The notes beneath the pieces are model-generated. The model saw only the letters and a list, made by a program, of their open reading frames with translations. It searched no databases and was not told the origin of the DNA. The position numbers and the translations under genes were made by a program. A stretch of 64,000 nt of DNA from Candidatus Binatia bacterium (GTDB taxonomy: Bacteria > Desulfobacterota > Binatia > UBA12015): the NCBI GenBank assembly GCA_029243485.1, contig JAQWRY010000001.1:186001-250000 (forward strand), read 5' to 3'. Below, piece after piece: positions 10,013 to 13,722 of this stretch (position 1 is its first letter; every line of letters begins with the position of its first letter).

Positions 10013-11055
10013 AGCGACGTCGTCCGTGTGAGTGCGGCCGCCTTGCTCGCCATGTCCAGCACGACGTCGCCGAAAGCCGCCATTTTCGGGTTGTCCGCTC
10101 CACCCTTTACGAACCGGGCGTAGCCGCCCTCCAGAACCACCGCCATCTTGAAGCGGGCGAGGATCACATAATAGTCGATCTCATCGACCGGCAGTCCGCT
10201 CGTGCTCGTGTACCGTTCGAGGAGTTCCTCACGTGAGGGCATCCCCGCGTAGTCGACGTACGCCGTTGCGGACCGATCCTCGTCCGGGTTCGGCCAGCCC
10301 ATCACGACCCACGCAAGATCAAGAAGCGGATCACCGACCGTCGCCATCTCCCAGTCGACGACCGCGGCCATCTTGGCGGGGCCCCCGTGCCGGTACATCA
10401 CGTTCGCGAACTGATAGTCGCCGTGAATGATGCCAGGCTTGTAGCTCTTCGGCTTGTGATCGCGTAACCACTGTCCCGCCTTGTCGAGCCCCGGGATCTC
10501 GCGAAACTGGAAGGCCTTCAGATGGGCATACCAGCGATCGACCTGACGCTCGTGGAAGCCGTCGGGCTTTCCGAACCCTTCGAGCCCTTTCGCTTTCCAG
10601 TCCACCTGGCCGAGCTTCGCAATCGCGTCGATAAGTTCCCACGCGAGGCCCTTCCGCGCTTCGAGATCCTGATCGAACGGGTCCGGCCAGCCGTCGAGAT
10701 TCATGCAGGACCAGCCGTCGACGAACTCCATCAAGTAAAAGCAGGCCCCGAACAACGACGGATCGTCGCAGACCCCGAGGACCCGCGAGTGCGGGACATC
10801 GGTGTCCTTCAGCGCGTCGAGAACCCGATACTCGCGGAGCATCGTCTCGTTGCGGCCCTTGGGGACCTTGCGAGGCGGGCGCCGGAGCGCCAGCCTCGCT
10901 TCCCCACGACGGATCTCGAAGATCTCGTTCGACGCGCCTCCGCTGATGAAGTTTATCTCGAGCGGCGAGCCCTTCCCGGGCAGGTCCCGCTCGTCCATCC
11001 AGCGGGCGAGTTTCTCAGGGTCGACCAGCCCCCGGGTGCGCTCCTCCTCACTCAC
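10009..11055 (-). CDS. APH-family phosphotransferase (ACAD10/11-type aminoglycoside-phosphotransferase-like kinase)
   Basis: 348 aa from a GTG at 11055 that overlaps the stop of the acyl-CoA dehydrogenase gene (GTGA), so the two are translationally coupled; the longer open frame to 11523 lies inside that gene. The kinase core shows the catalytic loop IIHGDYQFANVM (HGDxxxxN) and the metal-binding VVDWEMATVGDP (D in the DFG-like position). In animals the same kinase domain is fused to an acyl-CoA dehydrogenase in ACAD10/11, where it phosphorylates 4-hydroxyacyl-CoAs. The same role is inferred here: 4-hydroxy acid catabolism with the dehydrogenase partner. Confidence 0.9.
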   Translation of the reverse strand: MSEEERTRGLVDPEKLARWMDERDLPGKGSPLEINFISGGASNEIFEIRRGEARLALRRPPRKVPKGRNETMLREYRVLDALKDTDVPHSRVLGVCDDPSLFGACFYLMEFVDGWSCMNLDGWPDPFDQDLEARKGLAWELIDAIAKLGQVDWKAKGLEGFGKPDGFHERQVDRWYAHLKAFQFREIPGLDKAGQWLRDHKPKSYKPGIIHGDYQFANVMYRHGGPAKMAAVVDWEMATVGDPLLDLAWVVMGWPNPDEDRSATAYVDYAGMPSREELLERYTSTSGLPVDEIDYYVILARFKMAVVLEGGYARFVKGGADNPKMAAFGDVVLDMASKAAALTRTTSL

Positions 11056-12356
11056 TGATTGCCGACCTCGTGCTCGAGGAACTCCGCGAACTGCGCCCGC
11101 GCCTCTTCGACGCGCGTCGGGAGAAAGTCGTTCGGCCACAGCCCGTCGTAGGGCTCGTACTCCTTCAGAACCGCCTTCGCGACCGTCACCTTGTGCACCT
11201 CGGTCGGCCCGTCCGCGATCCCCATGATCGGAACACCCGCCCACATCCTCATGAGCGGCATCTCGTTCGAGCAGCCCAGGGCCCCATGCAGATGGAGTGC
11301 ACGCTGCACGACGTCGTGCAGGACCTTCGCCATCTGAACCTTCACCATAGCGATGTAGGTTCGTGCCTCCTTCTTGTTGCCCTGATCGATGTGCCACGCC
11401 GCGTACATCACGAGCAGGCGGAACTGCTCCAGCTCGATGAATGAGTCCGCGATCCGCTCCTGCACCATCTGCTTGCGGGCGAGTTGCTCGCCTTGCGTCC
11501 GCCGGCTGAGCGCACGCTCGCACATCATCCGGAGCGCACTCTTCACCTGGGCGACGGTCCGCATCGCGTGATGTATTCGGCCTCCGCCGAGGCGCGTCTG
11601 TGCGATCGCGAAGGCTTGACCCGGGCCGCCGAGGATATTCTCCGCCGGCACGCGGACGTTGTTGTAGCGAAGGTGCGGATGATGCCCCTCTCCCAGCGGC
11701 TCACCCATGACACCCACGTTCCGGACGATCTCGACGCCCGGCGTTCCGGCGGGGATCAACACCATCGACGCTCCCTGATAGACAGGTACGTCCGGGTCCG
11801 TAATGACCATCGCGATGATGAAGTCGGCGAAGTCCGCGTGCGACGAGAAGTACTTCTCGCCGTTGATCACCCATTCATCGCCCTGCTGCTCCGCCCGACA
11901 CTTGAACTCTTTCGGATCGGCACCGGCATGGGGCTCGGTCATCGAGAAACACGAGACGATCTCGCCATCAAGCAGTGGTTGGAGGTACTGCTTCTTCTGC
12001 GCCTCGGTCCCGTAGTGCGCGAGAATCTCGGCATTGCCGGAGTCCGGCGCCTGGCACCCGAACACATTCGGCGCCCAGCCCGAACGTCCCAGAATCTCGT
12101 TCATCAAACCGAGTTTCACCTGGCCGTATCCGGGGCCGCCGAGGTCCGCACCGAGATGACAAGCCCAGAGCTTCTGCTCGCGCACCTCGGCCTTCAGCGG
12201 GTCGGTGATCTTCTTGTAAGTGGGGTTCTTGCGGTCGAACGGCGCGACGCTTCCCGGGAAGGCGAGGTCGATCGGCTCGACCTTCTCCCGTACGAACGTG
12301 TCCATCCAATCGAGTTTCGCTTGAAACTCGGGGTCGGTCTCGAAATCCCAGGCCAT
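11052..12356 (-). CDS. Acyl-CoA dehydrogenase (ACAD11-like)
   Basis: 434 aa. FAD and substrate blocks of the family are present: CFSMTEPHAGADP (the SMTEP signature), INGEKYFSSHADFADF, and RTQGEQLARKQMVQERIAD in the C-terminal helical domain. The C-terminal ALHLHGALGCSNEMPL block corresponds to the flavin-proximal helix seen in ACAD10/11-type enzymes. It is followed directly by the APH-type kinase gene with GTGA overlap. The pair probably processes 4-hydroxyacyl-CoA: the kinase phosphorylates and the dehydrogenase eliminates phosphate and isomerises. The exact chain-length preference is unknown. Confidence 0.94.
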   Translation of the reverse strand: MAWDFETDPEFQAKLDWMDTFVREKVEPIDLAFPGSVAPFDRKNPTYKKITDPLKAEVREQKLWACHLGADLGGPGYGQVKLGLMNEILGRSGWAPNVFGCQAPDSGNAEILAHYGTEAQKKQYLQPLLDGEIVSCFSMTEPHAGADPKEFKCRAEQQGDEWVINGEKYFSSHADFADFIIAMVITDPDVPVYQGASMVLIPAGTPGVEIVRNVGVMGEPLGEGHHPHLRYNNVRVPAENILGGPGQAFAIAQTRLGGGRIHHAMRTVAQVKSALRMMCERALSRRTQGEQLARKQMVQERIADSFIELEQFRLLVMYAAWHIDQGNKKEARTYIAMVKVQMAKVLHDVVQRALHLHGALGCSNEMPLMRMWAGVPIMGIADGPTEVHKVTVAKAVLKEYEPYDGLWPNDFLPTRVEEARAQFAEFLEHEVGNQ

Positions 12357-12436
12357 CCGTCCTCCGAAAAAAGAGCTGTGGTTACGAACGCGAGAACTGC
12401 GTTCTCACGCAGGCTTTCACGGCCCCCCGCGGACAG

Positions 12437-13000
12437 TCAAGGGAGGTCGCGATCCATCACCGTCTTCCGGCCAGCCTCGTGAGCGCGGGCGATGGCATCG
12501 TCGGCGAGGTCACGCAGGAGCCGGGAGAACTCGGGCAAGACACCATCCGAGGTGTTCATGCCCGACCGGGCGCGAATGTAGGCCTTGAGCTTGGACGCAA
12601 CGACAAGGATGTCTTCGGGGATTTCACTGCGGTCGTGCAGCTCCAGCGGCGGCAACTCGTCGCCCGCCAATGCGGCCGGAGGAGGCGGACTCGCCTGCAG
12701 AGATCTCGGTGGCGCCGGCGTGGCCACGGCCGGAGCCGGGGGCGCCGTCTGCGGCGCCGCAGGCACGGCCGCCGCGGGTCCGCCGCGACCCGCGCTCGTT
12801 CGGTCCGGCGACCGCCGCTCTTCCGCCCAGGAATCCCGGTGCCGGAAGAGCGGCACGTGGGCCTCCCAGCACTCGACCGTGCAGAACGTGAAGTCCGTAC
12901 CCTTGCGGTGGCAAGTCGAGACGCTGCAGACGTAGTAGTCGGCCGAGAAGCCGATGTCGTTCTTGCAGGTGTTGCAGCGCTTCCAGGAACTGCCTTCCAC
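12437..13000 (-). CDS. N-terminal zinc-finger protein with C-terminal histone-fold-like domain
   Basis: 187 aa from a GTG at 13000; AAGGAG lies 6 nt upstream and decides this start. Residues 1-55 hold a Cys/His cluster (Cys 9, 12, 25, 30, 40, 44, His 31 and 48), suggesting two zinc sites. Residues 66-120 are a Pro/Ala-rich linker. Residues 128-187 read like a histone fold: a helix with LVVASKLKAYIRARSGM, a long middle helix LPEFSRLLRDLADDAIARAHEAG, and the hallmark AGRKTV followed by DRDLP. Archaeal histones and bacterial histone-fold proteins carry the same helix-RKTV-xxxD ending. DNA binding is inferred. It diverges from the DUF502 gene. Confidence 0.72.
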   Translation of the reverse strand: MEGSSWKRCNTCKNDIGFSADYYVCSVSTCHRKGTDFTFCTVECWEAHVPLFRHRDSWAEERRSPDRTSAGRGGPAAAVPAAPQTAPPAPAVATPAPPRSLQASPPPPAALAGDELPPLELHDRSEIPEDILVVASKLKAYIRARSGMNTSDGVLPEFSRLLRDLADDAIARAHEAGRKTVMDRDLP

Positions 13001-13101
13001 GGGCTCTCCTTCTGCGGTGTCAGTACCGCTTGAATCCAGGACGCTTGCACGCAGGCCAGCCCGCTTGCAAGGTTCCGAAGCGCCACGGGAGATCCGGACA
13101 C

Positions 13102-13722
13102 ATGAGAAACCTTTTGGAATTCGTGAAGACGACAGTGATCGGCGGCTTCTTCGGCCTGGTCCCCGTGGTGGGCGTCATCTTCATCGTCGCCGAATCGCTC
13201 AATGCCGTCGGTGTCGTGATCACGCCGATTGCGGAGAACCTGCCGGTCGAGACCATCGGCGGGATCGAACTCGCGCACGTCCTCGCTCTGGTCCTCGTCC
13301 TTGGGTTCTGCTTTGGGGTCGGCGCCCTTCTCCAGACCCAGATCGGCGCGCGAGGAACCCGGTGGCTCGACGAGCGCGTGCTCGACCGAATCCCCGGCTA
13401 CAACGTTCTGCGCGGACTGTCCGCGAGCTTCGCGGGCGACGACGACACCACCCGATTCGCGCCGGCCGCAGTCGATCTCCACGGCTCGGGCGTGTTCGCG
13501 TTCGCCTTCATCGTGGAAGAACTGGCCGACGGGGCCTTCACGGTGCTCGTGCCGATCAGCCCCACCCCGAGCCTTGGCACCCTGTACTACGCGCCCGCCG
13601 AGCGGGTCCGCCGCCTGGAGGTCCCCCTCGGAACGGCGGTGAACTGCATCATGCGCTGGGGAATCGGCTCGAGCGCGCTGGTCGACAGCGCCGGCCCGCC
13701 GCTCCATTCGCCCCCGAAGTGA
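13102..13722 (+). CDS. DUF502 family inner-membrane protein
   Basis: 206 aa from the ATG at 13102 with GGGAG at 13087-13091. Two transmembrane helices are visible, TVIGGFFGLVPVVGVIFIVA and a second around residues 50-78 (ELAHVLALVLVLGFCFGVGALL). After them comes a soluble part with the IPGYNVLRGL block, which matches the family's conserved P-x-Y-xx-(I/L)+(G/Q) region, and a late PSLGTLYYAP segment. The family is widespread in Gram-negative bacteria and has no defined biochemical role. The 101-bp upstream gap, shared with the zinc-finger/histone-fold gene, contains CGCTTGCA twice, 20 bp apart (13042 and 13062). Confidence 0.85.
   Translation: MRNLLEFVKTTVIGGFFGLVPVVGVIFIVAESLNAVGVVITPIAENLPVETIGGIELAHVLALVLVLGFCFGVGALLQTQIGARGTRWLDERVLDRIPGYNVLRGLSASFAGDDDTTRFAPAAVDLHGSGVFAFAFIVEELADGAFTVLVPISPTPSLGTLYYAPAERVRRLEVPLGTAVNCIMRWGIGSSALVDSAGPPLHSPPK

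Follow-up and report, generated by a model that had tools for sequence, protein, structure and literature searches.

The protein studied here is encoded in a stretch of 64,000 nucleotides from the genome of a Candidatus Binatia bacterium (called the window below, and meaning the whole stretch). It consists of an N-terminal finger with eight invariant ligands, a linker and a C-terminal bacterial histone fold. It is a ZZ histone, an architecture that was already published in 2024 (Schwab et al., PMC11390915), so that the kind is not new. By computation we find both folds, conserved ligands and DNA-contact residues, constraint on both domains and, in other genomes, a free-standing finger. We consider it fairly probable that the protein acts as a DNA-bending dimer with two finger docking modules, that is, as a low-abundance chromatin adaptor and not as a means of bulk packaging.

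Layout of the protein and its two domains

The open reading frame has exactly the boundaries that a preliminary description of the sequence had given it without naming a strand; it lies on the minus strand (Table 1). The protein ends in AGRKTVMDRDLP. The genome encodes it once; whatever matches next best has E values of 0.13 and 0.27. The AlphaFold2 model of the whole protein, calculated with 77 aligned homologues, has a mean pLDDT of 84.8 and a pTM of 0.46; the latter is expected, since two domains are joined by a floppy linker. The Pro/Ala-rich linker itself, noticed already in the preliminary description, is probably disordered.

Table 1. Features of the ZZ-histone gene, in positions of the window
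Feature	Position	Strand	Basis
ZZ-histone open reading frame, 187 aa, GTG start	12437..13000 (stop codon included)	-	ORF call and homologues
ZZ-like zinc finger, residues 6-60	12821..12985	-	ligands in 77/77; AF2 pLDDT 86.9; weak ZZ-domain structural matches
Pro/Ala-rich linker, residues 66-127	12620..12805	-	poor conservation; mean pLDDT 54-66 over residues 71-110
alpha3-type bacterial histone fold, residues 130-186	12443..12613	-	sequence, profile and structure matches
RKTVMDRD, residues 178-185: loop L2 and the short alpha3, with RD clamp R178-D185	12446..12469	-	
AAGGAGAG, candidate ribosome-binding site just 5' of the GTG start	13004..13011	-	inspection

A histone-fold tail had been proposed from the sequence, and the comparison with PDB chains supports it. 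With the single sequence, phmmer matched PDB chains of Bd0055/HBb (8cmp, E 2.3e-5; 8fvx, E 2.4e-5) and of the Leptospira histone HLp (9qt0, E 2.8e-5), always within residues 128-186. With a profile of 14 sequences, the E values were 3.2e-15 and 3.8e-15 for the HBb chains and 5.9e-11 for HLp, and the archaeal HTkC (9f2c) was matched as well (E 3.1e-7). From residue 121 on, the ten-residue mean pLDDT of the AlphaFold model lies between 90 and 97, and DSSP assigns the three helices of a histone fold (135-146, 154-175 and 183-185). The last of these is the truncated alpha3 helix of 3-4 residues by which alpha3 histones are recognised; the RKTxxxD motif and the RD clamp in loop 2, which are also characteristic of them, are present as R178, K179, T180, R184 and D185. 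Foldseek with the tail model returned HBb first (E 2.3e-4), and the best VIA-align match was DNA-bound HBb (Z 8.1, rmsd 1.7 A, 60 residues), with alpha3 histones at Z 7.3-8.1, above the nucleosomal histones at 6.0 and less. Profile, Foldseek and VIA-align all give the bacterial-dimer-like alpha3 fold that ZZ histones carry at their C-terminus. The Pfam family PF00808 (CBFD_NFYB_HMF) scores 13.3 bits on the tail alone, below its cut-off of 21.4, and is not listed for the whole protein. Over the whole genome it gives nothing above the cut-off and misses the ZZ histone too, hence it is uninformative on other histones. In a search with an alpha3-histone profile, the ZZ histone was the only match in the window's genome.

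The tail can be aligned to HBb without gaps, HBb residue n corresponding to residue n+127 of the window protein. In a simulation, the ten residues of HBb that rank as important for its contact with DNA are N22, R57, S9, T53, T8, S24, K10, K12, K52 and K16 (PMC11317129). Eight of these ten are identical in the window protein, K16 is conservatively replaced by R143 and T8 is different (A135); the RD clamp of HBb (R51, D58) is found in R178 and D185. The preliminary description had seen a bacterial histone-like DNA-binding protein here. The histone fold stands, and the conserved contact residues suggest that it binds DNA. The net charge is 0 for the histone domain and -2 for the whole protein, so that the affinity for DNA could be low; a histone domain with a net charge of 0 or less is found in 10 of 77 family members.

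Conservation was assessed in an alignment of 77 proteins, the window protein and 76 from the best 80 related loci. In all of them the eight ligands are unchanged, and so are R178, R184 and D185. The RKTV segment, on which the earlier reading of the tail had leaned, is conserved (K179 in 65/77, T180 in 76/77 and V181 in 76/77 in addition to R178), and so are the DNA-contact columns S136 (76/77), K139 (76/77), S151 (77/77) and N149 (64/77). The commonest residue accounts on average for a fraction of 0.71 in the finger, 0.71 in the histone and 0.17 in the linker. Changed codons show constraint on both domains as well, and therefore finger and histone are not chance reading frames: for finger, histone and linker in turn, the synonymous and non-synonymous changes are 16/5, 23/11 and 15/25 with respect to the congener L035, and 16/7, 24/9 and 15/27 with respect to L034. 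In the comparison with the more distant L037 the contrast is weaker (14/15, 17/18 and 15/30), and the excess of third-position changes persists in both domains, with hardly any in the linker.

The Cys- and His-rich N-terminus, also described before, holds six Cys and two His ligands within the first 54 residues (C9, C12, C25, C30, C40, C44, H48 and H54). Their spacing and the published pattern suggest that they pair as one C4 and one C2H2 site, which corresponds to the N-terminal two-site finger of ZZ histones and would bind zinc. The finger predicted alone gives a confident small model. In Foldseek, p62 ZZ domains fill the first five rows, with a best E value of only 0.21. VIA-align places the RSC chain 6tda_L on top (Z 5.0, rmsd 2.3, 49 residues), then a SAGA HAT-module chain (Z 4.9), the ribosomal chain 9fhl_a (Z 4.6), the ZZ domain of p62 (5yph, Z 4.6) and that of HERC2 (Z 4.0); the matched RSC and SAGA chains contain ZZ domains. 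The finger is therefore like eukaryotic ZZ domains, though with scores that are weak and tied, and these model-based scores and the ligand pattern fit the published ZZ assignment. By sequence, the finger has no significant match among PDB chains and the window finger reaches no Pfam cut-off. The ZZ family PF00569 is absent among the 25 listed of 32 Pfam families for the 77 fingers. Weakly, the fingers most often resemble zf-FLZ, C1_2 and VATC, and faint likenesses point to FCS-type, C1 and treble-clef fingers.

Several other names for the finger were considered. The zinc ribbon of the preliminary description was dropped, as there are eight invariant ligands instead of four and the model resembles ZZ domains; the zinc finger as such was borne out. 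A HIT or MYND finger was suggested by the C-x3-C and His spacing, and zf-HIT appears in 7 of 77 sequence scans (best E 1.5). MYND structures are found among the Foldseek matches, yet the first five rows are p62 ZZ domains, and we kept the ZZ name.

Distribution and neighbourhood of the gene

Relatives are encoded in 405 of 450 pattern-matched genome-contig stretches, and the titles of the best 80 of the 405 include Deltaproteobacteria, Myxococcales, Polyangiaceae, Myxococcota and Bdellovibrionales. In the window's phylum, at least ten of 394 sampled genomes have a match, a lower bound since eight candidates were scored per genome. Nine of them belong to the window's class, its own genome included, and the tenth is G298, a genome with 9% contamination. 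In G020, G025 and G298 the match is confined to the finger part. Among 58 related genomes, including the window's own, 29 have the finger and 25 the histone domain (20 of the 47 genomes with a completeness of at least 90% and a contamination of at most 5%). All 25 histone matches adjoin a finger, one per genome. A free alpha3 histone of the ZZ-histone type was found in none of the 58, and the Binatia ZZ histone is the only alpha3-type histone that we see in them.

A record titled Klebsiella pneumoniae (MAG; CAMBZJ010000041.1) also carries a ZZ histone. The protein equals that of locus L012 (G004:C41), from a 3.1 Mb genome of the window's family, and the title is probably a mislabel.

An anti-phage or phage origin was rejected: there is no PADLOC or PHROGs match at E values up to 1, and viral histone folds exist that are not close to the window protein. 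Four histone-only loci on viral contigs (IMG/VR; L114-L117) are 33-44% identical to the tail, to which the match is confined. A search of predicted viral proteins gave at best an unnamed protein (E 0.022, probability 1.00), whose 57 matched columns indicate the histone part.

The finger can be found without the histone. In family f8, four of six sampled members (G020, G025, G045 and G052) have a finger without a histone match, in genomes with completeness values of 100, 99, 99 and 82. A comparison of histone tails with the 2-3 kb around these genes gave nothing better than E 2.6. The eight ligands are complete in three of the four proteins, that of G052 being without two. In the 58 related genomes, histone-less fingers with all ligands occur in three (L024, L026 and L028). 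On inspection, the Binatia fingers without a histone have different genes around them.

We see the same in 237 sampled genomes of another phylum, that of a Polyangiaceae record (L058), presumably Myxococcota, where the counts are lower bounds for genomes with more candidates than the 25-26 scored. The finger is found at 90 places in 85 of the 237 genomes; at 78 places a histone follows within 1,200 bases, and at 12 it does not. One of the 12 (L118) is simply broken off by the contig end. The other 11 (L119-L129) have all eight ligands, and the protein ends 11-19 residues past the last one. Nine of these are compact open frames of 72-107 codons, and in L126 and L127 the frame extends upstream (196 and 409 codons), so that their N-termini are uncertain. 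In six of the 11 cases the genome has no fused copy; the other five are second copies. A free histone is also present in 20 of 78 genomes with the fused gene. In addition, two proteins of 237 and 249 aa (L130 in G537 and L131 in G555) have one ZZ-like finger that is followed by two tandem histone folds. In a tree of the finger, built on 68 columns and with several long branches, the 14 finger-only rows need four state changes, of which the well-supported branches force only one. Independent losses of the histone may thus have occurred.

As to the neighbourhood, the ZZ histone is followed on its own strand by an acyl-CoA dehydrogenase (window 11052-12356) and a phosphotransferase, as it is in the congeners L034, L035 and L037, across which the dehydrogenase is 75-88% identical. 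Beyond the genus, we found no gene in a constant place across clades in 80 related loci. Distant acyl-CoA dehydrogenases are found near the ZZ histones of L038, L059, L081 and L083 (in L059 just 13 bases downstream and on the same strand). Luciferase-like oxidoreductases occur in 9 of 81 loci, the window included, and 8 of 81 have a protein that by eye looks like an enoyl-CoA hydratase; most of these 8 belong to one Myxococcota clade. Genes of these three lipid-type enzyme families thus recur within 6 kb of ZZ histones in several clades, the loci L094, L101, L109, L111 and L056 and its kin included. All these tallies are raw counts, and some of the large neighbour clusters are antisense shadows. 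Directly upstream, a divergent gene (window 13102-13722, plus strand) encodes a DUF502 protein (PF04367) with no match in the 80 related loci at E 1e-6, congeners included. The stretch that separates the ZZ histone from the acyl-CoA dehydrogenase contains a perfect palindrome, GAGAACTGCGTTCTC, at window 12392-12406. The whole genome has only two GAGAACNNNGTTCTC sites, the second at G000:C1:358654, and zero control matches. Of the congeners, L034 and L037 keep the palindrome whole, and in L035 it has decayed. It is a candidate operator of the acyl-CoA dehydrogenase's own.

Possible roles of the finger and the histone fold

In the mechanism that we propose, the histone fold would very probably pair with a second copy, and the dimer would clamp the DNA backbone at the minor grooves, with no sequence preference, and bend the DNA as HBb does. 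Each dimer would carry two zinc-braced ZZ-like fingers on flexible linkers of about 60 residues. Most likely, these fingers would dock onto proteins and so hold either a partner on the DNA that the histone has bound or the histone on a partner. A DNA-bending dimer is likely because the contact residues and the fold are conserved. The finger probably has a job of its own, because it is as conserved as the histone and exists without it; most simply, this job would be the binding of a protein partner. Bacterial ZZ histones do not conserve the peptide pocket of eukaryotic ZZ domains (PMC11390915), and they would therefore have to dock in a way that is not just the familiar one. A partner was sought among the gene neighbours, and none is conserved in place beyond the genus. 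That no partner was found, the weak structural scores of the finger and the low charge of the histone domain count against the adaptor.

Alternatively, the protein could be a major nucleoid-packaging histone like HBb, with a finger that is merely a structural cap. HBb is indeed its closest structural relative, the DNA-contact residues are kept and no other alpha3-profile match exists in the genome. However, that genome has four HU/IHF-family genes, only 25 of the 58 related genomes have the histone domain, the domain has zero net charge, and B. bacteriovorus makes little transcript and little protein of its ZZ histone (PMC11390915). For these reasons we think that bulk packaging is unlikely and expect a low abundance in the Binatia host, too. 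The chances are similarly small that the finger binds nucleic acid and steers the histone to particular sites, which would make the protein a two-part transcription factor. Zinc fingers often do bind nucleic acid. The net charge of the finger (K+R minus D+E) is at least +1 in 66 of 77 family members, two ribosome-associated protein families are among its weak structural matches and FCS-type fingers among its weak Pfam likenesses. On the other hand, the window finger has a net charge of -1, and its structural matches include ZZ, MYND and LIM domains, which are mostly protein or peptide binders.

Even less probable, in our view, is that the histone fold is a pure dimerisation module without a role on DNA, as in TAFs or the SOS protein. 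The zero charge and the change from T8 to A135 would agree with it, and there are histone-fold proteins that have come to serve purposes other than packaging (PMC11390915); yet K139, S151, K179, T180 and R184, which lie outside the named dimer core of HBb, are kept in 65-77 of 77 proteins.

The chromatin adaptor that we favour might be part of something larger. Tentatively, and with more doubt than confidence, we suggest that bacteria use the finger as a docking module in its own right and that ZZ histones are one branch of an adaptor system. Free and DNA-bound fingers may there compete, or pair up, for a common partner. If true, this would be a bacterial reader-plus-histone arrangement that is not described in the literature searched. 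In any case, the finger-only and the finger-double-histone proteins are natural variants that separate the roles of the two halves, and with them the role of a zinc finger on a bacterial histone becomes directly testable.

Relation to known proteins

Schwab et al. (2024, PMC11390915) define ZZ histones by an N-terminal finger and a C-terminal alpha3 histone and find them mainly in Proteobacteria; in its available text, Binatia are not named as hosts. The preliminary description had expected, if the protein is conserved, a chromatin-type factor of a little-studied lineage. A member in Binatia is what we see, and most of the novelty falls away with the published class. The literature searched has nothing that joins Binatota with a histone, nor did we find histone-less ZZ-like fingers or proteins of a finger and a double histone in it; the available text of a review of double histones (PMC13088155) mentions neither zinc nor a ZZ type. 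The ZZ-histone survey, as far as its available text goes, began from the histone fold, so that finger-only proteins would lie outside it. In the available parts of the literature searched, ZZ histones are predicted and their expression is noted, and the binding of DNA or of a partner is not tested.

The closest published example is D0LYE7 of Haliangium ochraceum, with the same C4 and C2H2 finger and a bacterial-dimer-like alpha3 histone (PMC11390915). At a constant offset of 11, seven of its eight ligand positions fit the window protein. The sixth is different: C44 plus 11 gives 55, and the legend of Fig. 4 prints C53. This is possibly a slip for C55, as the family alignment puts the sixth ligand four residues after the fifth. 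In B. bacteriovorus, the ZZ histone would be Bd3044, the longer second histone of that species (Hocher et al. 2023, PMC10627809).

The eukaryotic ZZ domains of p62, HERC2 and p300 are among the best, if weak, structural matches of the finger, but differ from it in that there is no significant sequence match and in the pocket that bacteria have not kept. HLp of Leptospira perolatii shares the histone fold (Z 7.7, rmsd 1.0 A, 57 residues); it is, however, a face-to-face alpha3 histone of 63 residues without a finger, which forms a DNA-wrapping tetramer (PMC12701072). Finally, HBb (Bd0055) of Bdellovibrio bacteriovorus has the same fold, short alpha3, RKTV loop, RD clamp and eight of ten contact residues, but neither finger nor linker, and it is highly expressed, unlike the ZZ histone of the same species (PMC11390915).
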